The notes beneath the pieces were generated by a model, which worked only from the letters and a program-made list of their open reading frames with translations, had not been told where the DNA came from and made no database searches. A stretch of 64,000 nt of DNA from Sinimarinibacterium arenosum (lineage in GTDB: Bacteria; Pseudomonadota; Gammaproteobacteria; Nevskiales; Nevskiaceae). Below are positions 45,007 to 60,179 of the stretch, piece after piece; position 1 is the stretch's first letter; every line of letters starts with the position of its first letter. The DNA lies in NCBI RefSeq assembly GCF_005047655.1, contig NZ_SUKF01000003.1:496001-560000 (forward strand), written 5' to 3'. A program made the translations under genes and the position numbers.

Positions 45007-46596
45007 ATGAGCGCAGTCAAGGGCGTCGAAATCACCGGAGCATTGAGCCCGGCTTACAACAAGATTCTGACCCCGGAGGCGCTCAAGTTTGTCGCCAAGC
45101 TGGTCCGTAAACACGGCCCGACGCGCGACAAGCTGCTGGCCTATCGCGAGCAGCGCCAGGCGCTGGTCGACAGCAAGAAGCTCAAGCTGGGCTTTCTCAA
45201 GGAAACCAAGAAGGTCCGTGACGGCAAGTGGAAGGTCGCCGGCATTCCGGCCGATCTGCAGGATCGTCGCGTCGAGATCACCGGTCCGGTCGACCGCAAG
45301 ATGGTGATCAACGCGCTGAACTCGGGCGCCAAGTGCTTCATGGCGGACTTCGAGGATTCGGCCAGCCCGACCTGGGACCTGATGATGGAGGGGCAGATCA
45401 ATCTGCGCGACGCCGTCAATCGCAAGATCTCGTTCACCTCGCCGGAAGGCAAGAAGTACGCGCTGAACAAGGACATCGCCACGCTGATCGTGCGTCCGCG
45501 CGGCTGGCACCTGGACGAAAAGCACATCCTGATCGACGGCAAGCCCGCTCCGGGCGGCATTGTCGACTTTGCGCTGTTCTTCTTCCACAACGCGCAGACG
45601 CAGCTGAAGAAGGGCACCGGCCCGTACTTCTATCTTCCGAAGATGCAGTCGCATCTCGAAGCGCGCCTGTGGAACAACATCTTCAATGACGCACAGGATC
45701 TGCTGAAGATTCCGCGCAAGACCATCAAGGCCACGGTGCTGATCGAGACGATCTGGGCCGCGTTCGAGATGGAAGAGATCCTGTACGAGCTGCGCAACCA
45801 CATCGTGGCACTGAACTGTGGTCGCTGGGACTACATCTTCAGCTTCATCAAGACCTACCGGAACCATGCGGACCGCATGATCCCGGACCGCCAGAGCGTC
45901 GGCATGGACCGGCACTTCCTGGACAGCTACTCCAAGCTGCTGTGCCAGACCTGCCACAAGCGCGGCGCGATGGCGATGGGCGGCATGGCCGCGTTCATCC
46001 CGATCAAGGGCGACGAAGCCAAGAACAAGGCGGTATTCGACAAGGTCCGCGCCGACAAGCTGCGCGAGGTCAACAACGGCCACGACGGCACCTGGGTCGC
46101 GCATCCGGGCTTGGTCAGCGTCGCGATGGAGGTGTTCGACCAGAACATGCCGGGACCGAACCAGCTCGACAATCTGTGCCAGAGCTACAAGATCAAGGCA
46201 AGCGATCTGCTGGAGCTGCCGACGGGCGACATCACCGAAGGCGGGCTGCGCAACAACATCAACGTCGGCATCCAGTACATCGAGGCGTGGATCTCCGGCA
46301 ACGGCTGCGTGCCGCTGCACAACCTGATGGAAGACGCCGCTACCGCCGAAATTTCGCGCACCCAGCTGTGGCAGTGGCTGCGTCACGGCGCGGTGATGAA
46401 GGACAAGCGCAAGGTCACGCGTGAACTGGTGCTGCAGATCGTCGACGAAGAATTGGCGGCAGTGCGCAAGGAACTCGGTGATGCGCGCTTTTATGCAGGC
46501 CGCTTCGCGGAAGCGGCAGGTATCTTTGCGCGCATGTCGACTGCGACGCGCTGCGCAGACTTCCTGACCTTGCCGGCCTACGCTTACCTCGACTAG
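45007..46596 (+). CDS. aceB: Malate synthase A
   Basis: A 529-residue enzyme of the AceB type (E. coli 533). It begins VKGVEITGALSPAYNKILTPEAL; DFEDSASPTWDLMMEGQINL contains the acidic Mg-binding region, and VRPRGWHLDEKHI and ALNCGRWDYIFSFIK are family signatures with the catalytic Arg. It condenses glyoxylate and acetyl-CoA to malate in the glyoxylate shunt. GAGAGG precedes the ATG. A 12-base-pair hairpin follows the stop, closing the unit. Isocitrate lyase lies 8.4 kb further on; the biosynthetic cluster separates them. Confidence 0.97.
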   Translation: MSAVKGVEITGALSPAYNKILTPEALKFVAKLVRKHGPTRDKLLAYREQRQALVDSKKLKLGFLKETKKVRDGKWKVAGIPADLQDRRVEITGPVDRKMVINALNSGAKCFMADFEDSASPTWDLMMEGQINLRDAVNRKISFTSPEGKKYALNKDIATLIVRPRGWHLDEKHILIDGKPAPGGIVDFALFFFHNAQTQLKKGTGPYFYLPKMQSHLEARLWNNIFNDAQDLLKIPRKTIKATVLIETIWAAFEMEEILYELRNHIVALNCGRWDYIFSFIKTYRNHADRMIPDRQSVGMDRHFLDSYSKLLCQTCHKRGAMAMGGMAAFIPIKGDEAKNKAVFDKVRADKLREVNNGHDGTWVAHPGLVSVAMEVFDQNMPGPNQLDNLCQSYKIKASDLLELPTGDITEGGLRNNINVGIQYIEAWISGNGCVPLHNLMEDAATAEISRTQLWQWLRHGAVMKDKRKVTRELVLQIVDEELAAVRKELGDARFYAGRFAEAAGIFARMSTATRCADFLTLPAYAYLD

Positions 46597-46620
46597 GCTG
46601 CAAGCGGACGACGGATCCGG

Positions 46621-46647
46621 ATGAGGGCGCGGCTACCGCGCCCTCAT
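46621..46647 (+). terminator. Terminator-like hairpin after aceB
   Basis: A perfect 12-base-pair stem (ATGAGGGCGCGG with CCGCGCCCTCAT) with a three-base loop, 24 bases after the aceB stop, followed by CATTTGTG. The T tract is weak. The darA-like gene starts 31 bases later. Confidence 0.7.
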
Positions 46648-46678
46648 CATTTGTGAGGCCGTGAACGGGGAGCATTGG

Positions 46679-47629
46679 GTGGGCAAGCGGATCCTGGCGG
46701 TGTACTTCTCGCAGACCGGGCAGCTCAAGCGCTGCGCGGAGGCGATGGCCGCGCCGGTGCAGGCGGATCCGCAGATCGCGCTGGACTGGTGCGAATTGCG
46801 TCCGCAGGCGCCGTATCCGTTCCCATGGCCGTTCTTCACGTTCTTCGACCAGTTTCCGGAGACCGTGCATCTGGTGCCGCCGGCGCTGGAACCGCTGCAG
46901 ATTCCCGCGCAGCGTTACGACCTGATCGTGCTGGCATATACGGTGTGGTTTCTGTCGCCGGCGCCGCCGGTCACCGCATTTCTGAAATCCGACACAGGCC
47001 GGGCGCTGCTGCACGACACGCCGGTGATCACCCTGATCGCCTGTCGCAACATGTGGCACATGGCGCAGGAACAGGTAAAAGCGTTGCTGGCCGACGCCGG
47101 CGCGCGTCTGTCCGACAACGTCGTGCTGACCGACGCCGGCAGCAGCCTTGCCACCTTCATCACCACGCCGCGCTGGATGCTGACCGGACGCACCGATCCG
47201 CTGTGGGGACTGCCGGCACCGGGCATCCGCGATTCGGAGATCGCAGCGACGCGTCGTTTCGGCGATGCGATCGTCACAGCGCTGCATGAGAACCGGGTGG
47301 ATGGACGCACGCCGGTGCTTAGCGGACTCGGCGCGGTCGATGCCGACGTGCGACTGGTGCCCAGCGAGAAGATCGGACGTCGCAGTTTCTATCTGTGGGG
47401 CAAGCTGATCCGCGCCTGCGGCAAGCCCGGCGCGGCGGCACGCAAACCGGCCCTCGCGCTGTATGCCGTGTTTCTGGTGCTGATGATCGTGACCGTGGTA
47501 CCGGTCACGATGCTGTTGCGTGCGCTGCTGCGTCCGCTGACGCGGCGCCGCCAGGCGGCGCAGAAAGCCTATTTCGAACAACCCTCCGGCAGCTCGCGGC
47601 TGCGCCTCGACGAGCGCGCGCATGGCTGA
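46679..47629 (+). CDS. DarA-like flavodoxin-fold enzyme (dialkylresorcinol aromatase type)
   Basis: A 316-residue protein with an N-terminal flavodoxin-like domain (KRILAVYFSQTGQLKRC) and LIVLAYTVWFLSPAPPVTAFLKS, and a C-terminal membrane segment (LALYAVFLVLMIVTVVPVTMLL). Sequences of this family are annotated as dialkylresorcinol condensing enzymes DarA; published work on dialkylresorcinol synthesis in Photorhabdus-type bacteria assigns DarA as the aromatase and DarB as the ketosynthase/cyclase. I chose the GTG at 46679 because GGGGAG sits six bases upstream; another GTG at 46661 adds six residues. It overlaps the darB-like gene by eight bases. Confidence 0.8.
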   Translation: MGKRILAVYFSQTGQLKRCAEAMAAPVQADPQIALDWCELRPQAPYPFPWPFFTFFDQFPETVHLVPPALEPLQIPAQRYDLIVLAYTVWFLSPAPPVTAFLKSDTGRALLHDTPVITLIACRNMWHMAQEQVKALLADAGARLSDNVVLTDAGSSLATFITTPRWMLTGRTDPLWGLPAPGIRDSEIAATRRFGDAIVTALHENRVDGRTPVLSGLGAVDADVRLVPSEKIGRRSFYLWGKLIRACGKPGAAARKPALALYAVFLVLMIVTVVPVTMLLRALLRPLTRRRQAAQKAYFEQPSGSSRLRLDERAHG

Positions 47630-48776
47630 GGTCTTCATCACCCGACTGGCCAGCGCGTTACCGAATGCGCCGGTCGACAACGACGACATCGAAGCCGTGC
47701 TTGGCCAGGTCGGGGATCGACCGTCGCGCGCCCGCGCCCTGGTATTGCGCAACAACGGTATCCGCCGCCGGCACTATGCGATCGATCCGGCGACCGGGAC
47801 GCTCACGCACACCAACGCGCAACTGACTGCCGAAGCCGTACGCGGTCTGGTCGGTGACGATTTCGCGCTGGACGATATCGACGTCCTTGCCTGCGGCACC
47901 AGCTCGCCGGACCAGCTGATGCCGAATCACGCAGTGATGGTTCACGGCGAACTCGGCCAGCGCAGCTGCGAAGTCGTCTCCACCTCCGGGATCTGCGTCA
48001 GCGGCGTGATGTCGCTGAAGTACGCGGACCTGGCGATCCGCGCCGGACAGGCCAGCACCGCGGTCGCCACCGGCTCCGAACTCGCTTCGTCGTTCATGCG
48101 CGCCGGCAACTTCGCCGCGGAAAATGCCGCGCGGGTCGCGGCGCTGGAGAAGCGTCCGGCACTGGCCTTCGAGAAGGACTTCCTGCGCTGGATGCTGTCC
48201 GACGGCGCTGCCGCGGCCTTGCTGCGGGACCGGCCGAACCCCGCAGGGCTGTCGCTGCAGATCGAATGGATCGATCAGTTTTCCTTCGCCAACGAACTGC
48301 AGCCGTGCATGTATGCCGGCGCGGACAAGGACGCCACCGGACGCCTGGTCGGCTGGCGCGAATTCGCTTCGGCCCAGGAGATCGCGGAGCGCTCGGTGAT
48401 GTCGGTCAAGCAGGATGTGCGCCTGCTCGAAGATGGCATCCGCTACAGCGCCCGCGCCGGCTTCGAGGCAATGATCGCGCGGCGCGGCATTGCCGCGGAT
48501 TCGGTCGACTGGTATCTGCCACACTATTCCTCGGCGCATTTCCGTCAGGTCATGTTCGAGGTGATGCCGGAACACTGGCGCATTCCACAGTCACGCTGGT
48601 TCACCAACCTGAGTGAGCGCGGCAATGTCGGCTCGGCGTCGATGTATCTGATGATCGAGGAGCTGCTGGCGTCGGGACGTCTGACTCCCGGCCAGCGCCT
48701 GCTGTGTTTCGTGCCGGAAAGCGGGCGCTTCTCGATCGCCTTCGTGTGCCTGCGCGTGGTCGGAGCCGGCGCATGA
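47622..48776 (+). CDS. DarB-like beta-ketoacyl-ACP synthase III
   Basis: A 384-residue thiolase-fold enzyme of the KAS III/DarB group. The catalytic triad is complete: Cys125 (STSGICVSG), His301 (WYLPHYSS) and Asn335 (SERGNVGSAS). DarB joins two acyl chains by Claisen condensation and closes the ring before aromatisation by DarA. The gene overlaps darA by eight bases and the small HTH-like gene by four, so it is the centre of a coupled operon. A conventional KAS III role is unlikely given the neighbours; the chain lengths used are unknown. Confidence 0.85.
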   Translation: MAEVFITRLASALPNAPVDNDDIEAVLGQVGDRPSRARALVLRNNGIRRRHYAIDPATGTLTHTNAQLTAEAVRGLVGDDFALDDIDVLACGTSSPDQLMPNHAVMVHGELGQRSCEVVSTSGICVSGVMSLKYADLAIRAGQASTAVATGSELASSFMRAGNFAAENAARVAALEKRPALAFEKDFLRWMLSDGAAAALLRDRPNPAGLSLQIEWIDQFSFANELQPCMYAGADKDATGRLVGWREFASAQEIAERSVMSVKQDVRLLEDGIRYSARAGFEAMIARRGIAADSVDWYLPHYSSAHFRQVMFEVMPEHWRIPQSRWFTNLSERGNVGSASMYLMIEELLASGRLTPGQRLLCFVPESGRFSIAFVCLRVVGAGA

Positions 48777-49168
48777 AACAGTCCGAAGTGCCGCAGGATC
48801 AGCTGGCGTATTACGGCGATGCACGGCGCGCGGTCTATGCCGTCGACGACAGCGGTCACTACACCACGGTCGCTTCAACCGGCTGGAGTGCCGAGGCCCA
48901 GGTCAACGCTGATGCGGTGGCCGAATTCGAGCGTCTCGCGCAGGAAGCCCGCACACGGGTGGAGCAGGGGCGCTCGTCGCCACTGGACTATCACATGTAC
49001 GCACGCCGCATGGACCTGCCGATGCTGGCGCAGAGCTCCGGAATCTGGCGCTGGCGCGTGCGTCGTCATTTGCGTCCCCAGGTCTTCCAGCGTCTGCCCG
49101 AGCGCCTGTTGGCGCGCTACGCCGAGGCCCTGGGTCTGAGCATCGCCGCGCTGAAGGAACTGCCGTGA
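48773..49168 (+). CDS. Small protein with HTH-like C-terminus in the biosynthetic operon
   Basis: A 131-residue protein I do not recognise by name. The N-half is acidic with VYAVDDSGHYTTVASTGW. The C-half, MDLPMLAQSSGIWRWRVRRHLRPQ and RYAEALGLSIAALKELP, split around a linker, looks like an XRE-type helix-turn-helix followed by a short tail, though the pattern is not definitive. It could be a cluster regulator or a structural partner of the enzymes. The ATG overlaps the darB stop (ATGA) and its TGA overlaps the BtrH-like start, so it is made in step with both. Confidence 0.55.
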   Translation: MKQSEVPQDQLAYYGDARRAVYAVDDSGHYTTVASTGWSAEAQVNADAVAEFERLAQEARTRVEQGRSSPLDYHMYARRMDLPMLAQSSGIWRWRVRRHLRPQVFQRLPERLLARYAEALGLSIAALKELP

Positions 49169-50196
49169 TCGTCGAGAACTTCCGTCACCGCCACGCCGGT
49201 CATTGCGAAAGCGGGGTCACCAGCAGTCTGCTCGGCCATTACGGGCTGGAACTGTCGGAGCCGATGGCGCTGGGTCTGTCGGCGTCGCTGACGTTTGCCC
49301 ATATCCCCTTCGTCAAGGTCGGGGGGCTGCCGCTGACGGCCTACCGCATGCCGCCCGGCAGCATCTACAAGGGACTGCGCAAGCCGCTGGGCCTGCGCAT
49401 GGCGCAGCAGCGGTTTCGCGATCCCGACGAGGCGATGCGCGCCCTCGACGCCGAGCTGGCCGCAGGCCGTCCGCTGGGCCTGCAGACGTCGGTCTACTGG
49501 CTGCCGTATCTGCCGGCGGAGATGCGTTTCCATTTCAACGCCCACAACATCATCGTCTTCGGCAAGGACGGCGACGACTATCTGGTCAGCGATCCGGTGT
49601 TCGACCAGCCGCAGCGGTGTCCCGCGGCCGACCTGCGCAAGGCGCGCTTTGCACGCGGCGTGTTCGCCCCCAGGGGACTGCAATATCAGCCGCAGCATTT
49701 CGAGCGCGATTTCGATCTCGATGCCGCGGTGCGGCGTGCCATCGCCAAAACCTGGAAGATGATGCTGTATGCGCCGGTGCCGATGGTCGGCGTTGGCGCG
49801 ATCCGGCGCCTGGCCCAGCGCATCGAAGCGTTTGATCGCAAGCTGCCGGATGTGCGGCTGCAGCGCCTGTTCATCGGCAACATCGTGCGCATGCAGGAAG
49901 AAATCGGCACCGGCGGCGGCGGCTTCCGCTTCATGTACTCGGCGTTCCTGCAGGAGGCCGGCGAAAAACTGTCGCAGCCGGCGCTGCTCGACGCGTCGAC
50001 GCGGATGACCGCCGCCGGCGATCAATGGCGGCAGTTCGCGCTCCTGGGCGCGCAGTTCAGCCGCAAGAAGGACATCACCCTGCAGCAGATCGCTGAGGCG
50101 CTGCGCACGGTTGCGCAGACCGAACGGGCGGTCTATCTGCAGCTCAAGGACTGGAGCAAGGGCAGGGCGCCGGCGGATGGCGCGCAAGCCGCCTAG
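49165..50196 (+). CDS. BtrH-type N-terminal domain protein (putative acyltransferase)
   Basis: A 343-residue protein with the BtrH N-terminal domain: Cys14 in AGHCESGVTSSLL and His127 in FNAHNIIVFG fit the cysteine/histidine pair of the papain-like fold, followed by the DUF4872-type helical region. BtrH in butirosin synthesis moves an acyl group from an acyl carrier protein to the antibiotic amine. By analogy this enzyme could transfer a chain from the cluster's ACP to an acceptor. Its stop (TAG, 50194-50196) shares a CTAG with the stop of the opposing ketosynthase-like gene. The acceptor is unknown. Confidence 0.78.
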   Translation: MIVENFRHRHAGHCESGVTSSLLGHYGLELSEPMALGLSASLTFAHIPFVKVGGLPLTAYRMPPGSIYKGLRKPLGLRMAQQRFRDPDEAMRALDAELAAGRPLGLQTSVYWLPYLPAEMRFHFNAHNIIVFGKDGDDYLVSDPVFDQPQRCPAADLRKARFARGVFAPRGLQYQPQHFERDFDLDAAVRRAIAKTWKMMLYAPVPMVGVGAIRRLAQRIEAFDRKLPDVRLQRLFIGNIVRMQEEIGTGGGGFRFMYSAFLQEAGEKLSQPALLDASTRMTAAGDQWRQFALLGAQFSRKKDITLQQIAEALRTVAQTERAVYLQLKDWSKGRAPADGAQAA

Positions 50197-51062
50197 GCGC
50201 GTCGAACGCGCAGCAGATAGTAGCCACCGTCGCCGCTGTGATTGACCTGCAGCAATCCGGGCGCTGAATCCAGCAGCAGAAATCCGATCAGGCGCGCCGC
50301 CGTGGTCGCAGTCGAGTAGGTGGCATCCGCGTCCAGCGCCTGTGCATCCCGACGCACCGCGCGCAACGCGTCGATGTCTGCCCTACTGCAGCGGTGGCCG
50401 ATCGCAACGCGCCACTGCGCCGGCGCATCTGCAAGCGCGCGCTGCGCCTGCTCCAGGGTCGAGCAGCGCTCGATCGGATCGATCAGGCCGAGCGGCGCGG
50501 CGCAGTCTGCGTCCAGATAGAACCAGTGACTGCTTTCGCTCAATTCGGCAGTCGCCGGCAGCCCCAGCCGCAGGCGTTGCTCGGCCAGCGGCCAGACACC
50601 CTCCTCGACATAGCCCAACAGCGCGCGACGATGCCGGGCACTCTGCAGCTGCAGCAGCTCCAGAGCGCATTCCAGACTGGCGCTGTTGCGATGCACCGCC
50701 AGCTGCGGCCCGCGCATGCGCAGATGCTGCGCGATGTAGAACCCGGCCATGTTGCCGGAGATGTTCATGAACTCGAACGGGGTCGGCGGCCGCGCCTCGG
50801 CGATCACGCCGCGCAGCGCGCGCACGCAATCGGCCAGCATCGGCGCCTCGGAAGCAAGATACAGCGCCGTATCGTCGCCGACGCCGCCGGCTTCGCGGCC
50901 ACAGCGCAGCGCACCGTAGACCGCCAGTTCGATGAAGCGGTTGATGCGGCGGAATGCCTGGCCGGTCATGTCCAGCAGCTCCGCGCGCAAGTCCTGCGGC
51001 GCATCGTCGAGAATGCGCTCGTGCGCCGACACGGCGGCAAGGCGCAGAGGCTCAGCGTTCAC
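50193..51062 (-). CDS. Degenerate beta-ketoacyl synthase-like protein (no catalytic cysteine)
   Basis: A 289-residue thiolase-fold fragment: PFEFMNISGNMAGFYIAQHLRMRGP and SASLECALELLQL follow the ketosynthase N-terminal pattern, but the active-site TACSS reads RNSAS, so the cysteine is serine. No His-rich second half is visible. It resembles chain-length-factor-type partners that pair with an active ketosynthase and set chain length. The GTG at 51062 starts inside the upstream ketosynthase gene (11-base overlap), so the two are coupled. It meets the BtrH-like gene stop to stop. Confidence 0.7.
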   Translation of the reverse strand: MNAEPLRLAAVSAHERILDDAPQDLRAELLDMTGQAFRRINRFIELAVYGALRCGREAGGVGDDTALYLASEAPMLADCVRALRGVIAEARPPTPFEFMNISGNMAGFYIAQHLRMRGPQLAVHRNSASLECALELLQLQSARHRRALLGYVEEGVWPLAEQRLRLGLPATAELSESSHWFYLDADCAAPLGLIDPIERCSTLEQAQRALADAPAQWRVAIGHRCSRADIDALRAVRRDAQALDADATYSTATTAARLIGFLLLDSAPGLLQVNHSGDGGYYLLRVRRA

Positions 51063-52215
51063 GATCGAGCACCAGTGCGCAGTTGTTGCCGCCAAAGCCG
51101 AAATAGTTCAGCAGGACCGGACCGCCCGACCAGGCCCGTGTCGCGGTTAGCGGCTGCGCGCCGATCTCCGGATCCGGCTGCTCGTAGCCGCGGGTCACGG
51201 GCACACTGCCGCGATCCAGGCAGGCGGTGAACGCCAGGGTCTCCAGTACGCCGCAGGCCCCGAGGGTATGTCCGAGCACCGGCTTGATGGAGGTAAACGG
51301 CGGCAGCGATGGACCAAAGCATTCCCGCATACCCAGACCCTCAGCCAGATCGTTGGCGCGCGTGCCGGTGCCGTGCGCCTTGATCGCACCGATCCGCGCC
51401 GCCGGGATCGCACTGTCCGCCAGCGCATCGCGCAGGGTGGCCGCAATCTGATCCGCCGACGGATTGGTCGGATGCGTGGTGTCGCACAGGGTCGCGCCGC
51501 CGAGTATCCGCCACGCGGGCTGCGCCGTCGGCGCCTCACGGCTCAGGACCAGCGCCGCCGCGCATTCGCCAAGCACGATGCCGTCACGTTGCAGGTCGAA
51601 GGGGCGGCTGCTCGCGCGCGTCGCCAACATCATGCTGAAGAACCCCTGCTGCGACAGCCGGTTTTCAATCTCGACGCCGACCACGAGCGCATCGTCGAGC
51701 CGGCCTTCACGCAGCATCCAGCTCGCATACAGCAAGGCGTTGGCTGCGCTTGAACAGGCGGTGGCGATGGTGTAGCTGGGGCCATCCAGATGCAGCTGCT
51801 GATGCAGCCAGGTCGCCAGCCGGCTCTGGTCCGGTCGATGAATCGGCAAGGCCTCTGCGTTGTTGGCATAAGCCTCTGCGTATGCCCGCTCGTGATGATG
51901 GATGCCACCGGAGGAACTGCCGACGAACAGGCCGATCCGGCGCCGCCGCGCTGCGGACAGCTGTGCATCGTCGAGCGCCGTACGGGCGACCTGCAGCAGC
52001 ACCGCATCGGCCGCGGCGCCGGCGTCGAGCGCGCGGAAGTAGGGCAGTTCGATCTCGCGCCCGAGGCTTGAAAATCGCACCTGAGCCGGTGTCGTGCTCA
52101 GGGCCAGACAGGCGTCGGCGAGCGCGACGCGACCGCGGCCGGCCGCAGACACTGCATCGCCGCCGCGCAGATAGACCGCCGCCGGCGCATTGGCAGACAT
52201 CACGTGCAGCGTCAC
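51052..52215 (-). CDS. Beta-ketoacyl synthase (KAS I/II type)
   Basis: A 387-residue elongating ketosynthase. The triad is Cys154 (TACSSA), His281 (KAHGTGT) and His316 (LGHTLGAC), and GFGGNN closes the C-terminus. It is somewhat shorter than FabF (about 410). It would condense malonyl-ACP with an acyl primer on the neighbouring ACP. The GTG at 52215 overlaps the ACP stop (GTGA); an ATG at 52200 is a second possibility. With the downstream cysteine-less homologue it forms a possible alpha/beta ketosynthase pair. Confidence 0.88.
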   Translation of the reverse strand: MTLHVMSANAPAAVYLRGGDAVSAAGRGRVALADACLALSTTPAQVRFSSLGREIELPYFRALDAGAAADAVLLQVARTALDDAQLSAARRRRIGLFVGSSSGGIHHHERAYAEAYANNAEALPIHRPDQSRLATWLHQQLHLDGPSYTIATACSSAANALLYASWMLREGRLDDALVVGVEIENRLSQQGFFSMMLATRASSRPFDLQRDGIVLGECAAALVLSREAPTAQPAWRILGGATLCDTTHPTNPSADQIAATLRDALADSAIPAARIGAIKAHGTGTRANDLAEGLGMRECFGPSLPPFTSIKPVLGHTLGACGVLETLAFTACLDRGSVPVTRGYEQPDPEIGAQPLTATRAWSGGPVLLNYFGFGGNNCALVLDRER

Positions 52216-52478
52216 TGCGGCTGGATGTAGTCGGCCAGCGTATCGATGTTGACCAGGATCCTGCGCATCTGCTTGGGATCCTCGATACGCAAATTGAACT
52301 GCATCTGGAGCGCCATCGAGATCTGCAGGCCGTCGACCGAGTCCAGCTCCAGCGCCGACCCGGGGCCGAACAGCGGCTGGTCGTCGGGCAGGGTGGCCGG
52401 ATCGACGTCCTTGTCGGTCTCCGTCACGATCATCTGCTTGAGACGCGCCTTCAGCGCAGGATCCTGCGAACCCTTCAT
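52212..52478 (-). CDS. Acyl carrier protein
   Basis: An 88-residue ACP. The phosphopantetheine attachment Ser47 lies in LELDSVDGLQ, where the usual Leu after Ser is Val. Helices before and after (LKARLKQMIVTETDK and IDTLADYIQPQ) fit a four-helix ACP. It lies between the exporter permease gene and the ketosynthase gene, each overlapping by four bases. It probably carries the growing chain for the cluster's ketosynthases and the BtrH-like transferase. No phosphopantetheinyl transferase is in the window. Confidence 0.88.
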   Translation of the reverse strand: MKGSQDPALKARLKQMIVTETDKDVDPATLPDDQPLFGPGSALELDSVDGLQISMALQMQFNLRIEDPKQMRRILVNIDTLADYIQPQ

Positions 52479-53698
52479 GGTGTTGTCGTCGTATTGGTTG
52501 AATTGCGGCGCAGCAGCCCTGCCGCCAGCGCCAGGCAGCTGAGGCCGAATCCGGCCAGGCTCATTGCTTCCGGCAGAGCGTCCTGCCAGCCTCCCTGGCG
52601 CAGCACGATATCCCAGAAGCCTTCGAGGCTCCAGGCCATCGGCGACACCCCGGTAAGCTGCTGCATGGTGGCCGGCATCACCAGTTTGGGCACCATCACG
52701 CCGCCCAGCGCCGCGAGTATCAGGCTGATCGCACCGCCGGCGATCGTCGCTTGCAGCGTCGTGCGCACCCGGACAGCAACCAGCAGTGCGAGACCAATCG
52801 CCGCCAGACTGGTCGCCGTGCCGATCATCCACAGTCCGAACACGCTGTGACCGACGGTGAATCGGTCACCGCCCAGCGCCGGCACCAGCCACACTCCGAT
52901 GGCGATCATCACGACCATCTGCAGCAAATTCACCAGGTAATACGGCAGCACCTTGCTGGCCAGCAGCAGCGTCGACGACACCCCGAGCACGCGCAGCCGC
53001 AGCAGACTGCCTTGCTGCCGTTCGACGACAAAGGCACTGGCCAGCGGAATCACCGCGAAGAACATCGCGAAGATCAGCCATGCCGGAACATTCTGTTGCA
53101 CCGAGGTCGGCGTGACCGCCGGGGTGCCGTCTGCGCTTCGATAGCGCTCCTCGACCGGCAGACGCCTGGGATCACCGAGATACCGCATGGTCTGCATCTC
53201 GGCGTCGCTGTACCCCATGACCTCGGCCATCAGGTAATCCGACTGCACCGATAACAGGCATTGACGCACGCTCAACGCCGCTGCCGCGCGCAGCTGCGGC
53301 AGCACACTGGGCTGGAATTCGAGCTGAAGCATCGGCGGTTCCGCGACGCCATCGCGAAACGATGCGGCCAACTCGTGGCGCGTCGCGAGAAACTCCGAGA
53401 ATCCCGGCACCACGTGGATCACCACGTCGGCATCCTCCGCCGCGACCTGGCGAAATCCCTGCTGCTGCCACAGGGTCCCGACGAAGTCATGTGCCAGCGT
53501 TCCGCCGTCTTCGTCGATCACCGACACCGCGATGCTGAAACCTGCATCCGCACGGAAGGCATCGCGCAGCGACAACGACATGATCAGGATAAACAGCGTC
53601 GGCACCGCGAACAGCACCAGCAGGCCGTGACGATCACGCGACAGCAGGCGCAATTCCTTGCCGCACAGCGCGGCGAACGCTCGCATCGGATACGGCAT
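52475..53698 (-). CDS. ABC-2 type exporter permease
   Basis: A 407-residue membrane protein with the ABC-2 layout: one N-terminal helix (LLVLFAVPTLFILIMSLS), a large periplasmic domain of about 180 residues, then five helices (AWLIFAMFFAVIPLASAFVVE to AMSLAGFGLSCLALAAGLL). It pairs with the ATP-binding protein at 53698-54423, overlapping it by one base, and overlaps the ACP gene by four. It would export the product of the cluster or move it to the outer leaflet. The ATG at 53698 is the start. Confidence 0.88.
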   Translation of the reverse strand: MPYPMRAFAALCGKELRLLSRDRHGLLVLFAVPTLFILIMSLSLRDAFRADAGFSIAVSVIDEDGGTLAHDFVGTLWQQQGFRQVAAEDADVVIHVVPGFSEFLATRHELAASFRDGVAEPPMLQLEFQPSVLPQLRAAAALSVRQCLLSVQSDYLMAEVMGYSDAEMQTMRYLGDPRRLPVEERYRSADGTPAVTPTSVQQNVPAWLIFAMFFAVIPLASAFVVERQQGSLLRLRVLGVSSTLLLASKVLPYYLVNLLQMVVMIAIGVWLVPALGGDRFTVGHSVFGLWMIGTATSLAAIGLALLVAVRVRTTLQATIAGGAISLILAALGGVMVPKLVMPATMQQLTGVSPMAWSLEGFWDIVLRQGGWQDALPEAMSLAGFGLSCLALAAGLLRRNSTNTTTTP

Positions 53699-54423
53699 CA
53701 GATCGAATCCCGCAGCCGCGTGTGGGTCAGCCGCAGAAATGCGGCTTCGAGTCGTTCACCCTCGATGCGCAGGGCGTCCAAAGGACCCTGCGCGACGAGC
53801 TGCCCCTGGTCCAGGATGGCGGCACTGGCGCACAGGCGTTCGATCTCTTCCATGTAATGCGTGCTGTACAGCACCGTGACGCCGTCCTGCGCCAGGTTCC
53901 GCACCGCCTCGATCAGGAAATTACGCGACTGCGGATCGACGCCGGCGGTGGCTTCATCCAGGCACAACACCTGCGGTTCGCCGAGCAGGGCGATGGCGAA
54001 ATTCAAACGCCGCTTGAGCCCACCGGACAGCGTTTCGGCCCGCTTGCCGCGATGTGCCTTCAGGTCGGCCACCTCCTGAGCGCGCGCCAGAGAGTGCGCG
54101 GTCGCACGCGGCGTCAGGCAGGCGAACAGTTCGAGATTCTCGGCCACAGTGAGTCCCGGATAGAACGCCAGCTCCTGCGGCGCGTACCCGAGCAATGCCC
54201 GAACCGTTGCGGGCTCCTGCGCGAGCGCGTGACCACCGATGGTGACGCTGCCACTGTCCGCCGTCAGCGTGCCGGTCAGAATCGACATCAGCGTGGTCTT
54301 GCCGGCGCCGTTGGGTCCCAGCAGGCCAAACAACCCCCCGCGTGGCACGTGCAGCGAGACGTCATCCAGCGCGGCCTGGGCGGCACCGGGATAACGCTTG
54401 TTCAGATGCTCGAGACGGATCAC
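53698..54423 (-). CDS. ABC transporter ATP-binding protein
   Basis: A 241-residue ATPase with Walker A GPNGAGKTT, Q-loop APQELAF, signature LSGGLKRR, Walker B LCLDEATAGVD and H-loop STHYMEEI. It is of the drug/lipid exporter (CcmA-like) class. The ATG at 54423 is the first gene of the leftward operon; its stop shares a base with the permease start. Only 23 bases separate it from the divergent EF-hand gene, so any promoter must overlap that gene or lie inside it. Confidence 0.92.
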   Translation of the reverse strand: MIRLEHLNKRYPGAAQAALDDVSLHVPRGGLFGLLGPNGAGKTTLMSILTGTLTADSGSVTIGGHALAQEPATVRALLGYAPQELAFYPGLTVAENLELFACLTPRATAHSLARAQEVADLKAHRGKRAETLSGGLKRRLNFAIALLGEPQVLCLDEATAGVDPQSRNFLIEAVRNLAQDGVTVLYSTHYMEEIERLCASAAILDQGQLVAQGPLDALRIEGERLEAAFLRLTHTRLRDSI

Positions 54424-54446
54424 CGGGGCATGAAAGAGTTATAGGC

Positions 54447-54857
54447 ATGAGACAATGGCCGGATTCGATCACCCCGGCGCGAGGACACTGCGGTTTGAAG
54501 ACGCCCGCATTCAAGCGACTGATTGTGCCAGCATTGCTGATCGCGCTGCTGCTGCCGGATGTCGCCACGGCCAGTCCCGGGCCGCGCAGCACAGCCGACG
54601 CCGTGGCGCTGCAGCAGCGCCGCGCAGCCCTGCGGGAAGCGAGGGAAGCGCAGTTCCGCCGCGCCGATACCAACGGAAATCGACGCTTGTCACCCGCCGA
54701 GATCGAGCAGGGCAGGCTGCCCAGGGTGCTGTTGCAGCGCTTCGGCGAGATCGATCTCGACGGCGACGGCGAACTCAGTCCGGAAGAGCTGCAACAGCTG
54801 GCGGATCGCCGTGTGCGGGCGGCGACACAGCCGGCCACCGCGGCAGGCGGAGAATAG
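54447..54857 (+). CDS. Exported EF-hand calcium-binding protein
   Basis: A 136-residue protein with an N-terminal hydrophobic segment (LIVPALLIALLLPDVATAS) that is a likely signal peptide and two EF-hand loops: DTNGNRRLSPAE and DLDGDGELSPEE. Each has Asp at positions 1 and 3, and Glu at 12, so both should bind calcium. A Gln/Arg/Ala-rich helix links the signal to the EF hands. The ATG at 54447 gives an unusually long polar N-terminus before the hydrophobic part; a TTG near 54495 is possible. It diverges from the exporter operon. Confidence 0.75.
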   Translation: MRQWPDSITPARGHCGLKTPAFKRLIVPALLIALLLPDVATASPGPRSTADAVALQQRRAALREAREAQFRRADTNGNRRLSPAEIEQGRLPRVLLQRFGEIDLDGDGELSPEELQQLADRRVRAATQPATAAGGE

Positions 54858-54882
54858 GCCACTTCAGGCTTTGGTCGAACAT

Positions 54883-54913
54883 TTGTGCATCGCAATATCA
54901 TTGCCGGTATAAT
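54883..54913 (+). promoter_or_regulatory. Candidate promoter of aceA
   Basis: TATAAT at 54908-54913 is a perfect -10 hexamer; TTGTGC at 54883-54888 is the best -35 but is 19 bases away. It is 117 bases before the aceA ATG. A regulated promoter with a poor -35 is possible. Confidence 0.45.
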
Positions 54914-55030
54914 CCCGCCCCCGAAGTGGCCCCCCAGTCAGATCGGTGCGCCTGCATCTGGCGCCGTCGGCTGTCACAAGCCCCTCAGAAAGATCTGGAT
55001 TTCTTTTTCTCCCCGAGAGGACTGCTGCAA

Positions 55031-56338
55031 ATGACTCGTGACGAGCAAATCAAGGCCCTGGAAAACGACTGGGCGACCAATCCCCGCTGGAAGACCGTAA
55101 CGCGCGCCTATAGCGCCGCCGACGTCGTACGTCTGCGTGGCAGCATCCAGCCGGAATACACCCTGGCCAAGAACGGCGCCGAAAAGCTCTGGAAGGCCGT
55201 CAACGGTGGCGCGAAGAAGGGCTACGTCAATGCCTTCGGTGCAATTACCGCTGGTCAGGCGATGCAGCAGGCCAAGGCCGGCCTTGAAGCCGTCTACCTG
55301 TCGGGCTGGCAGGTTGCTGCCGACGGCAACACCTCCGAAACCATGTACCCCGATCAGTCGCTGTACGCGTACGACTCGGTGCCGACCATGGTTCGCCGCA
55401 TCAACAACACCTTCAAGCGCGCTGACGAAATTCAGTGGGCCAAGGGCATCAACCCGGGCGACAAGGAATACGTCGACTACTTCCTGCCGATCGTGGCTGA
55501 CGCTGAAGCCGGTTTCGGCGGCGTGCTGAATGCCTTCGAGCTGATGAAGAACATGATCGCCAACGGCGCTGCCGGCGTTCATTTCGAAGACCAGCTGGCT
55601 GCGGTGAAGAAGTGCGGCCACATGGGCGGCAAGGTGCTGGTTCCGACCCAGGAAGCCGTCGAGAAGCTGACCGCCGCGCGCTTTGCCGCGGACGTCATGG
55701 GCGTGCCGACCATCGTGCTGGCGCGCACCGATGCCGAAGCAGCCAACCTGCTGACCTCGGATCATGACCCGAACGACAAGCCGTTCCTGACCGGCGAGCG
55801 CACCCAGGAAGGTTTCTACCGCGTCAAGAATGGCCTCGAGCAGGCTATCTCGCGCGGCGTTGCCTACGCTCCGTACGCCGATCTGGTGTGGTGCGAAACC
55901 GGCGTGCCGGACATCGGCTTTGCACGTGAATTCGCGCAGGCCGTCCTCAAGGCGTGCCCGGGCAAGCTGCTGTCGTACAACTGCTCGCCGTCGTTCAACT
56001 GGAAGAAGAACCTGGACGACAAGCAGATCGCCAAGTTCCAGGACGACCTGTCGGCGCTGGGCTACAAGTATCAGTTCATCACCCTGGCTGGTATCCACAT
56101 CAACTGGTACAACACCTTCCAGTTCGCGCATGCCTATGCGCGCGGCGAAGGCATGAAGCACTACACCGAAATGGTTCAGGAGCCGGAATTCGCTGCGCGC
56201 GAGAAGGGTTACACCTTCGTCTCGCACCAGCAGGAAGTCGGCGCCGGCTACTTCGACGACGTCACCACGGTGATCCAGGGCGGCAGCAGCAGCGTCAAGG
56301 CGCTGACCGGCTCGACCGAGGAAGAGCAGTTCCACTAA
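55031..56338 (+). CDS. aceA: Isocitrate lyase
   Basis: A 435-residue enzyme, the length of the E. coli type. The catalytic motif is KKCGHMGGKVL, with the Cys as general acid, and the Mg site includes VADAEAGFGG and the WCETG segment. It splits isocitrate into glyoxylate and succinate. The frame is open upstream to 54455 but that part overlaps the EF-hand gene in another frame; ATG at 55031 follows GAGAGGAC. A strong terminator follows. aceB is 8.4 kb upstream, so the two shunt genes are not in one operon here. Confidence 0.97.
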   Translation: MTRDEQIKALENDWATNPRWKTVTRAYSAADVVRLRGSIQPEYTLAKNGAEKLWKAVNGGAKKGYVNAFGAITAGQAMQQAKAGLEAVYLSGWQVAADGNTSETMYPDQSLYAYDSVPTMVRRINNTFKRADEIQWAKGINPGDKEYVDYFLPIVADAEAGFGGVLNAFELMKNMIANGAAGVHFEDQLAAVKKCGHMGGKVLVPTQEAVEKLTAARFAADVMGVPTIVLARTDAEAANLLTSDHDPNDKPFLTGERTQEGFYRVKNGLEQAISRGVAYAPYADLVWCETGVPDIGFAREFAQAVLKACPGKLLSYNCSPSFNWKKNLDDKQIAKFQDDLSALGYKYQFITLAGIHINWYNTFQFAHAYARGEGMKHYTEMVQEPEFAAREKGYTFVSHQQEVGAGYFDDVTTVIQGGSSSVKALTGSTEEEQFH

Positions 56339-57670: not shown

Positions 57671-58333
57671 ATGATTCGTATCATGCTTGTTGACGATCAC
57701 CGCCTGGTTCGCGCCGGATTGAAGCGCGTTTTGCAGGAAGTGGCCGATATGGAAGTTCTGGCAGAAGCCAGCAGTGGCGAAGAGGCGCTGGAACTCGTCC
57801 GCACGATCACCCCCGACATCGTGTTGATGGATATCAACATGCCCGGCATTGGTGGACTTGAGGCCACTCGCCGGCTGCTGCAGCGCTGCCCGACGGCGAA
57901 AGTGATCGTGGTATCCATGCATCTGGAAGAGCCGTATCCGAGCCGGATGCTCGCCGCCGGTGCTGCCGGATACATCAGCAAGGACTCTGCCGCCGATGAG
58001 GTCGTGACCGCGATCCGCAGGGTCTCTGGGGGCGGCCATTACGTCGCGGCAGATGTTGCCGGCAATCTTGCTGCAAGTCTGGTCAAAGGCCCGAACGGTG
58101 CATCACCGTTCGATCAGCTGTCGCAGCGTGAAACCCAGGTCATGTTGATGGTGACCAAGGGCTACTCGACACAGGAAATTTCCGACCGCTTGCACCTCTC
58201 ACCGAAAACCGTCAGCACCTACCGTTATCGACTATTCGAAAAGCTCGGCGTCAACAATGATGTCGAACTGACCCGCATGGCCATGCGCTACGGTTTGCTG
58301 GAAGAGCGCTCGGAAACCCGCAGCGAGCCTTGA
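57671..58333 (+). CDS. uvrY: Two-component response regulator GacA/UvrY
   Basis: A 220-residue NarL-family regulator. The receiver domain has the acidic pair DDHRLV, the phosphoacceptor Asp in VLMDINMPG and Lys in YISKDSA. The C-terminal LuxR-type HTH is LSQRETQVMLMVTKGYSTQEISDRLHLSPKTV. In the gammaproteobacteria this gene (uvrY/gacA) lies just upstream of uvrC and is activated by BarA/GacS to induce small regulatory RNAs of the Csr/Rsm system. AAGGAG precedes the ATG. uvrC starts 25 bases after the stop. Confidence 0.94.
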   Translation: MIRIMLVDDHRLVRAGLKRVLQEVADMEVLAEASSGEEALELVRTITPDIVLMDINMPGIGGLEATRRLLQRCPTAKVIVVSMHLEEPYPSRMLAAGAAGYISKDSAADEVVTAIRRVSGGGHYVAADVAGNLAASLVKGPNGASPFDQLSQRETQVMLMVTKGYSTQEISDRLHLSPKTVSTYRYRLFEKLGVNNDVELTRMAMRYGLLEERSETRSEP

Positions 58334-58358: not shown

Positions 58359-60179
58359 ATGACGGCTGAATCCCGCAGCTTCGATCCTCGCGCCTTTCTC
58401 TCTCAGCTCAGCACCTCGCCGGGCGTTTACCGCATGTACGGCGCCGGCGACGAGCTGCTGTATGTCGGCAAGGCGCGGAATCTGCGCAAGCGCGTCTCCA
58501 GCTATTTTCTGCGCGCGAGCGGCAATCCGCGCATCGAAAGCATGGTGTCGCAGATCCAGCGGGTCGACGTCACGCTCACGCACACAGAGGATGAGGCACT
58601 GCTGCTCGAAGCGGCGCTGATCAAGGATCAGTCGCCGCGCTATAACGTCCAGTATCGCGACGACAAAAGCTACCCGTACCTGCGCTTCACATCCCACCGG
58701 TATCCGCGCATCGCGTTCTACCGGGGCGCGACCAATGGTGCCGATCGTTATTTCGGACCATTTCCCAGCGCAGCGGCAGTTCGAGAAACCCTGCAGACCT
58801 TGCAGAAACTGTTCCATCTGCGTCCGTGTCGCGACAGCTTTTTCGCGCATCGGGATCGGCCGTGCCTGCAATATCAGATCAAGCGCTGCTCGGCGCCCTG
58901 CGTCGGCCTGATTGCACCTGAGGACTATGCCCGCGATCTGGCAAACGCTGCACGTCTGCTTGAAGGCAAGGGCGAATCCTTGGCTCAGGATCTGACAACA
59001 GAGATGCAGCGCGCAGCTGATACGCTGGATTTTGAACAGGCGGCCAAACTGAGGGACCAGATCGCAGCGCTCAAGCGCGTACGCCAGAGCCAGTCCATGA
59101 CCGGCGGGGCTGAAGACATTGACGTCATCGCTGTTGCCGCTCACGCATCCAGCAGCTGCGTCACGGTGATCAGCGTACGTGACGGCGTCAATCTGGGTCA
59201 CCGCAATCATTTTCCCAAGCACCCGGCGCATACGCCGCCCGAGGAATTGCTGGAGCGCTTTGTCAGCCAGCACTATCTGACGCAGAAACCGCCGCCGGAG
59301 GTCCTGCTCAGTCATCCTCTCGACGATGGCGGCGTCAGCGAGGAGGCAATCTCCCAGCATGCAGGCCGCCGTGTGCGCCTTTACTGCCCTCAACGCGGGG
59401 CCAAGCTCCGATTGCTCGAAATGGCCGTCAGCACGGCAGCGCAGGCGCTGTCGTCGCGGTTGGTCGAAGCCGCCAGCATGGACCAGCGTCTTTTGGAGTT
59501 GCAGCGTGTATTCGAGCTCGAGCATCCACCGCGGCGCATTGAATGCTTCGATATTTCCCACACGCAGGGCGAGCGCGCCGTGGCATCCTGTGTCGTCTTC
59601 AACGAAGACGGGCCACTCAAGTCAGCCTATCGCAAGTTCAACATCGAGGGCATTGTCGGGGGCGACGACTACGCCGCAATTGCCCAGGCGGTTAGTCGTC
59701 GTTTTGCGCGCGCTAAAGCGGGCGAGGGCAGCATTCCTGATCTTTTGCTGATCGATGGTGGACAGGGGCAGCTCAACGCAGCTCTGGAGGCCCTGGACGA
59801 GCTGGAGATGGCGCAGGAGATGCGCGTGGTGGGTGTCGCCAAAGGGCCGACGCGAAAACCGGGGCTCGAAGAATTGTGGATGCCGGATCTGGAGCTGCCG
59901 CTGCGTCTTCCAGCCGACTCGCCGGCGCTGCACTTGATCCAGCGCGTACGTGACGAAGCGCATCGCTTCGCGATCACCGGGCACCGTGGCCGGCGCGACA
60001 AAGCACGAATTGGCTCGGATCTGGACTCCATCGAAGGCTTGGGGCCGGCGCGGCGCAAAGCGCTGCTGCAGACATTCGGCGGCCTCGGTCAGCTCAAGCG
60101 TGCCGGCATCGACGAGTTGGCCCAAGTGGCCGGTATATCCAGAACTCTGGCAGAACGCATCTACGCGCATTTCCATTGA
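58359..60179 (+). CDS. uvrC: UvrABC system protein C
   Basis: A 606-residue nucleotide-excision repair endonuclease. The GIY-YIG domain begins SPGVYRMYGAGDELLYVGKARNLRKRV, a UVR domain interacts with UvrB (about 200-240, AADTLDFEQAAKLRDQIAAL), the C-terminal RNase H-like nuclease has ECFDISHTQGERAVAS, and a helix-hairpin-helix pair (SIEGLGPARRKALLQ) ends the protein. It makes both incisions around a lesion. The ATG at 58359 is 25 bases after uvrY. A 58-base gap separates it from pgsA. Confidence 0.97.
   Translation: MTAESRSFDPRAFLSQLSTSPGVYRMYGAGDELLYVGKARNLRKRVSSYFLRASGNPRIESMVSQIQRVDVTLTHTEDEALLLEAALIKDQSPRYNVQYRDDKSYPYLRFTSHRYPRIAFYRGATNGADRYFGPFPSAAAVRETLQTLQKLFHLRPCRDSFFAHRDRPCLQYQIKRCSAPCVGLIAPEDYARDLANAARLLEGKGESLAQDLTTEMQRAADTLDFEQAAKLRDQIAALKRVRQSQSMTGGAEDIDVIAVAAHASSSCVTVISVRDGVNLGHRNHFPKHPAHTPPEELLERFVSQHYLTQKPPPEVLLSHPLDDGGVSEEAISQHAGRRVRLYCPQRGAKLRLLEMAVSTAAQALSSRLVEAASMDQRLLELQRVFELEHPPRRIECFDISHTQGERAVASCVVFNEDGPLKSAYRKFNIEGIVGGDDYAAIAQAVSRRFARAKAGEGSIPDLLLIDGGQGQLNAALEALDELEMAQEMRVVGVAKGPTRKPGLEELWMPDLELPLRLPADSPALHLIQRVRDEAHRFAITGHRGRRDKARIGSDLDSIEGLGPARRKALLQTFGGLGQLKRAGIDELAQVAGISRTLAERIYAHFH

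Follow-up and report, generated by a model that had tools for sequence, protein, structure and literature searches.

An arcuflavin-type dialkylresorcinol cassette in Sinimarinibacterium arenosum, with DarE as a candidate for the ester step

In this study, we analysed a 64,000-nucleotide stretch of the Sinimarinibacterium arenosum genome (contig NZ_SUKF01000003.1, positions 496,001 to 560,000 of the forward strand), hereafter the window, and focused on a nine-gene cassette at 46661-54423. The results showed that it is a member of the arcuflavin-type dialkylresorcinol (DAR) cassette, which is already described and widespread. The likely function of the cassette is to produce a DAR, to join it by an ester bond to a polyene acid made separately, and to assist in exporting the product. 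We infer the product of this strain and the roles of DarC, DarD, DarE, DarF, DarI, DarJ and DarK, and word them conditionally below; the most useful lead is that DarE may be the polyene-DAR ester synthase.

The cassette holds the nine genes of the Azoarcus dar locus

Reading of the open reading frames (ORFs) of the window gave nine genes arranged as two convergent operons with tight overlaps, as a first-pass annotation of this DNA had claimed. The rightward arm consists of darA, darB, darD and darE, and the leftward arm of darF, darI, darC, darJ and darK. The gene letters follow the Azoarcus naming; the NCBIfam names for the darD and darE families are DarG and DarH.

darA, 46661..47629, plus strand: flavodoxin-like DAR aromatase; alternative start at 46679
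darB, 47622..48776, plus strand: StlD/DarB ketosynthase-cyclase, C125-H301-N335
darD, 48773..49168, plus strand: small protein, NCBIfam DarG family
darE, 49165..50196, plus strand: putative acyltransferase with BtrH_N and DUF4872 domains, NCBIfam DarH
darK, 50193..51095, minus strand: degenerate, chain-length-factor-like ketosynthase; start uncertain
darJ, 51052..52215, minus strand: ketosynthase, Pfam ketoacyl-synt, C154-H281-H316
darC, 52212..52478, minus strand: acyl carrier protein (ACP), serine in LDSVDG
darI, 52475..53698, minus strand: ABC-2 permease, PF12698 and PF01061
darF, 53698..54423, minus strand: ABC transporter ATPase, PF00005

The sequence ATGA at 48773 is common to darB and darD, darD and darE overlap at 49165-49168, and the arms meet with a 4-nt overlap of the darE and darK ends (50193-50196). 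Within the leftward arm, the overlaps lie at 51052-51095 (darK/darJ), 52212-52215 (darJ/darC), 52475-52478 (darC/darI) and 53698 (darI/darF). Overlaps of this operon-typical kind in both arms indicate operon organisation. A sigma-70 promoter scan of 46400-55100 found 0 promoters versus 1.1 expected, and a terminator scan of the same interval found 5 versus 3.8 expected, giving no usable signal.

Table 1 of PMC3949708 lists azo0283-azo0293 of Azoarcus sp. BH72 as darK, J, C, I, H, G, F, E, D, B and A, where darH and darG encode PilT-domain and prevent-host-death (PHD) proteins. By annotation and by the gene list of that paper, the Azoarcus locus minus H and G comprises the same nine genes as the window. 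The first-pass annotation knew of no described product for this exact gene set; in Table 1 the nine genes match the arcuflavin dar locus, and we discarded the idea of an undescribed set. The Azoarcus genes are listed in a single order, K-J-C-I-(H-G)-F-E-D-B-A, with the PilT/PHD pair inside, whereas the window cassette is split into two convergent arms and lacks that pair. In the same source, arcuflavin is predicted to consist of a DAR and a xanthomonadin-like aryl polyene joined by an ester bond, and the pigment was lost in insertion mutants of two unlinked arc loci. The DAR part of the pigment agreed with the DAR obtained from the Azoarcus dar proteins; DAR in free form was not detected (PMC3949708).

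DarB and DarA are the probable DAR-forming pair

DarB passed the StlD/DarB model NF005293 (556 bits, cut-off 450) and matched the solved StlD structure (PDB 5gk0) along its whole length (E 2e-133). Its proposed C125-H301-N335 triad was confirmed exactly, residue by residue. StlD works in stilbene synthesis and on other substrates than DarB. DarA showed a weak flavodoxin match (E 0.002) and an SQTGQ motif, and scored above the cut-off of no family in the curated family and Pfam scans; its identity is indicated by its homologues, which adjoin DarB at 66 of the best 80 loci described below. DarB would condense a beta-ketoacyl thioester with a second acyl thioester to a cyclohexanedione, which DarA would aromatise to the DAR, in line with the chemistry known for both families. 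Chitinophaga darB and darA, expressed heterologously, yielded a DAR, as reported in PMC3992019.

The same genome carries a separate polyene cluster

The window lies on contig C18. Contig C23 of the same genome encodes, at 132-147 kb, one ApeP dehydratase and one ketosynthase that scores 501 bits against the polyene-type model NF006618, above its cut-off. We read a score above this cut-off, which was reached by no control genome, as the mark of an aryl-polyene cluster. With genes called by codon-usage scoring, the cluster spans about 130-148 kb of C23. Its biosynthetic genes encode an FkbO/Hyg5-like chorismatase, an AMP ligase, a short-chain dehydrogenase/reductase (SDR), a Ketoacyl-synt_2 protein and a GT2 protein, together with one carrier protein and a second one seen as an ORF only. 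Besides ApeP there is a small dehydratase (FabA-like above cut-off, ApeI-like below), and of two acyltransferase-like proteins one is above its cut-off and one, Lip_A_acyltrans-like, just below. LolA, an MMPL-like exporter and a tryptophan-halogenase-like flavin adenine dinucleotide protein complete the set.

By gene content, the C23 cluster resembles the arc gene list of Azoarcus and appears xanthomonadin-like. Azoarcus likewise has polyene genes elsewhere in its genome, including chorismatase, AMP ligase and halogenase-like genes (PMC3949708). The Azoarcus arc genes include arcM; an arcM-like methyltransferase was not seen among the 20 C23 stretches scanned. In the flexirubin clusters of Chitinophaga and Flavobacterium, a DarA/DarB-type DAR is likewise esterified with an aryl polyene acid (PMC3992019). 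Flexirubin has a tyrosine-derived starter, whereas the polyene cluster of the present genome has a chorismatase instead, which points to a hydroxybenzoate start. Unlinked polyene and DAR clusters of this kind show that two loci can contribute to a single pigment. The first-pass annotation had proposed a resorcinol-type lipid made on the local ACP and exported; the idea of a DAR enzyme pair working alongside acyltransferase, ACP and exporter was upheld, but the C23 cluster is a likelier acyl source than the local ACP alone.

A second FabF-like ketosynthase (L012:8526-9749, C23) adjoins an SDR reductase at the distal end of the polyene cluster.

The DAR set co-occurs with polyene genes

We scored 369 genomes of the class, in 18 of which DarE was found above cut-off; three genomes with weaker hits (G013, G138 and G101) were counted as lacking it. 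The polyene ketosynthase (NF006618) was present in 18/18 genomes with DarE and in 64/351 without (Fisher p 3.5e-13, genomes taken as independent). ApeP at E 0.001 was present in 13/18 and 31/351, respectively (p 1e-9). As a sole polyene marker ApeP was rejected, because it misses five of the 18 DarE genomes, all five of which have the ketosynthase. DarB above cut-off was found in 21 class genomes, all of them with the polyene ketosynthase and 18 with DarE, and it lay within 5 kb of DarE in 18/18. Since DarE never occurred without DarB in this sample, the data tie the whole DAR set, not DarE alone, to polyenes. The polyene ketosynthase was located within 50 kb of darE in seven of the 18 genomes and on another contig in 11. 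Among 50 named genomes, hand-chosen from the 80 loci described below and mostly represented by isolates and long contigs, the ketosynthase was found in 46 and ApeP above cut-off in 30.

Several results weigh against a polyene-esterified DAR as the product. The Fisher test assumes independent genomes and was uncorrected for kinship, and NF006618 scoring covered at most four candidates per genome, which weakens the co-occurrence. Three class genomes with DarB and without DarE also have the polyene ketosynthase, and four of the 50 named genomes lack it above cut-off; one of these four has an ApeP hit and three (those of loci L044, L067 and L074) have neither marker. DarB itself fell under the cut-off of the narrower NCBIfam exception model resorcinol_DarB (NF053539; 484.6 bits, cut-off 550), so that its exact product is less certain than its family. 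In the published systems, the arcuflavin ester was predicted from mass spectrometry without nuclear magnetic resonance (PMC3949708), and a ligase-like protein, FlxW, was proposed for flexirubin ester formation (PMC3992019).

The three named carriers with neither marker would suit a self-contained cassette whose own ACP carries the synthesis of an acylated or chain-modified resorcinol lipid for export, with no aryl polyene involved, and the cassette does have its own ACP, ketosynthase, ketosynthase-like partner, acyltransferase and exporter. We regard this as improbable, since the polyene ketosynthase accompanies DarE in all 18 class genomes and in 46 of the 50 named ones, whether linked or not, and since the DAR part of the Azoarcus pigment agreed with the DAR of its dar proteins, with free DAR undetected.

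DarE is a candidate for the ester step

DarE passed the DarH_acyl model NF053550 (454.6 bits, cut-off 300), and Pfam assigned it a BtrH_N and a DUF4872 domain. Cys14, His127 and Asp143 are invariant across 39 aligned DarE sequences and form a candidate catalytic triad. In the predicted structure, with a predicted local distance difference test (pLDDT) score of 91.4, a helix begins at Cys14 and a strand at His127, an arrangement that we take to be that of papain-like enzymes. A search of the DarE profile against solved structures gave no credible relative: there were only four matches (best E 0.0016), all designed coiled coils along the C-terminal helices, and these were taken as chance. Scanning of viral contigs with DarE matched four stretches, none encoding a relative.

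In butirosin synthesis, BtrH is an acyltransferase that works from ACP to acceptor, the acceptor there being an aminoglycoside amine. DarE likewise has the BtrH_N domain, and ACP-dependent acyl transfer is expected of it; the expected acceptor differs, being a phenolic hydroxyl. As a BtrH-type cysteine acyltransferase, DarE would take the aryl polyene acid, a product of the C23 cluster, off its carrier protein and pass it to a DAR hydroxyl, forming the ester. The family name in NCBIfam, BtrH-related acyltransferase, indicates that others already expect an acyltransferase, and DarE becomes a testable candidate for this step through the close link between the cassette that bears it and the polyene ketosynthase.

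This assignment matters for the joining of polyene acid and DAR. The flexirubin account proposes FlxW, and the arcuflavin account calls the BtrH-like protein a "BtrH-like peptidase"; the ester and acyltransferase passages of PMC3949708 ascribe no function to it. DarE might instead act on another acceptor or edit a DAR precursor, with the ester formed by a ligase or by an acyltransferase of the polyene cluster. FlxW provides a ligase-like precedent and the C23 cluster contains two further acyltransferase-like proteins, but we judge this unlikely given the ACP-to-acceptor activity of BtrH in butirosin synthesis and the NCBIfam family name.

DarC, DarJ and DarK may supply a DAR precursor

The first-pass annotation had described an active and a degenerate ketosynthase. 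The first holds for DarJ, in which C154-H281-H316 are present, and the degeneracy of DarK is supported at profile level. The best solved match of DarJ is 6kxd chain A (E 5e-36), with 7f28_B (2e-35) and 1j3n (4e-35) nearly equal. DarK on its own matched no family in the curated family and Pfam scans; a profile of 23 DarK sequences matched FabF 1j3n (E 1e-7), the polyketide synthase-nonribosomal peptide synthetase ketosynthase 6kog (3e-4) and 6kxd chain B (7e-4). By eye, the active-site column of DarK in the alignment to FabF and 6kxd_B is without a conserved cysteine. DarJ and DarK look like a ketosynthase and a chain-length-factor-like partner, judged from these alignments. DarC scored 34 bits against NF006617, under the cut-off of 70, and carries the LDSVDG motif.

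DarC and the DarJ-DarK pair would supply or carry one acyl precursor of the DAR. Alternatively, the three proteins could extend or release the polyene. The entry 6kxd is labelled "Ketosynthase", and we take it to be a polyene-making pair of ketosynthase and chain-length factor; its two chains are the best solved match of DarJ and the third-best of DarK. This alternative is nevertheless somewhat unlikely, because other ketosynthases match DarJ nearly as well as 6kxd_A and the C23 cluster has its own ketosynthase and Ketoacyl-synt_2 partner.

DarF, DarI and DarD may serve export and regulation

DarF contains the motifs GPNGAGKT, LSGG and LCLDEAT, and DarF-DarI would help the product toward the envelope. 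DarD passed DarG_fam NF053536 (171 bits, cut-off 70) and stayed under the flexirubin DarG model NF053545 (134.8 bits, cut-off 170). The family was aligned over 37 sequences. The predicted structure of DarD (pLDDT 91.5) shows two strands and a long helix, followed by a C-terminal half that is helical and in our reading of the model may resemble an XRE-like helix-turn-helix. The DarD profile gave four matches among solved structures (best E 0.027), with no database support for a helix-turn-helix. DarD is perhaps regulatory.

The cassette recurs across three phyla in two main layouts

Scanning of genome contigs with a DarE alignment matched at least 595 stretches, at least 565 of which encode DarE relatives. 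The following counts refer to the best 80 of these loci, some on short contigs, scored by the best BLAST hits of the nine window proteins; some DarJ and DarC hits are perhaps neighbouring polyene genes. Hits were obtained for DarE at 80 loci, DarD at 78, DarC, DarI and DarF at 71 each, DarJ at 70, DarB at 68, DarA at 66 and DarK at 48. The exact nine-gene convergent layout ABDE-kjcif was kept at 25 of the 80 loci, and a colinear order (ABDEFICJ or ABDEFCIJ) at 26. DarD and DarE were neighbours at 77/80 loci, ABDE stood together at 64/80, and DarA adjoined DarB at 66/66 loci with DarA. On a DarE tree of 58 rows (the window, 25 convergent loci and 32 with ABDEFI), the layout label required four changes, compared with a mean of 19 when shuffled.

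Hosts include Pseudomonas, Variovorax, Marinobacter, Vibrio, Aggregatibacter, Sulfurimonas and Desulfobulbaceae. The set is more than a chance grouping because it recurs in Pseudomonadota, Thermodesulfobacteriota and Campylobacterota. The convergent cassettes of Solimonas variicoloris, Pseudomonas mendocina, P. chengduensis and others have the identical nine-gene layout, that of S. variicoloris with 57-78% protein identity to the window, and differ from the window in inter-arm spacing and genomic place. A tentative but plausible extension is that the cassette is a mobile capping module in polyene-making genomes of Pseudomonadota and at least two neighbouring phyla, with DarE as the missing ester synthase; its own pair of ketosynthase and chain-length-factor-like protein may serve to assemble a dedicated chain, and the resulting DAR-polyene esters would then go beyond arcuflavin.

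At one Pseudomonas locus (L061:10999-13874), about 2.9 kb separates darE from darK, compared with less than 350 bp in 21 of the 25 convergent loci. Two class genomes carry distant DarE relatives (L032 and L033) with 27-29% identity, under the family cut-off.

The cassette lies between aceB and aceA

The features flanking the cassette are as follows.

aceB, 45007..46596, plus strand: malate synthase; left flank, outside the cassette
EF-hand gene, 54447..54857, plus strand: read as a small EF-hand protein that probably has a signal peptide; start uncertain, divergent from darF
aceA leader, 54883..55030, plus strand: promoter-like TTGTGC...TATAAT; right flank, conserved
aceA, 55031..56338, plus strand: isocitrate lyase; right flank, outside the cassette

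The TATAAT of the aceA leader was seen by eye and is not on the sigma-70 scan list. The cassette and the EF-hand gene sit between aceB and aceA (46593-55030). A matching aceB was found in 13 of 20 relatives searched. In six of the 13 (four of the genus, one of the family and one of the order) aceA directly follows aceB, with a gap of 79-325 bp in five of these six empty sites; in the other seven, aceB is 54-58% alike and no aceA occurs within the roughly 1.4 kb of available flank. Similarity to five empty sites stops at 46592-46595, at the aceB stop, and returns at 54883 (three sites) or 55006-55011 (two sites). The guanine-plus-cytosine content is 66.5% over 46650-54882, compared with 61-62% in aceB and aceA.

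The adjacency of aceB and aceA in six of 13 relatives indicates that the cassette was probably inserted there. DarE is present in four of 11 same-genus genomes, including that of the window. In the three other same-genus carriers (G421, G424 and G425), the EF-hand gene and aceA come directly next to the cassette, and the 20 kb covered contained no aceB. These data fit a history in which the cassette was inserted beside aceA and is absent from, or was lost by, some species; an older presence with repeated loss is a less probable history.

At all six loci examined in this order, the EF-hand gene lies beside darF, and it is possibly a local cassette member. As a general member it was ruled out, with a single hit (S. 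variicoloris) in the 80 named loci. Further downstream in the window, reading of the ORFs gave a UvrY/GacA-like response regulator gene (57671-58333) followed by a UvrC-like gene (58359-60179).

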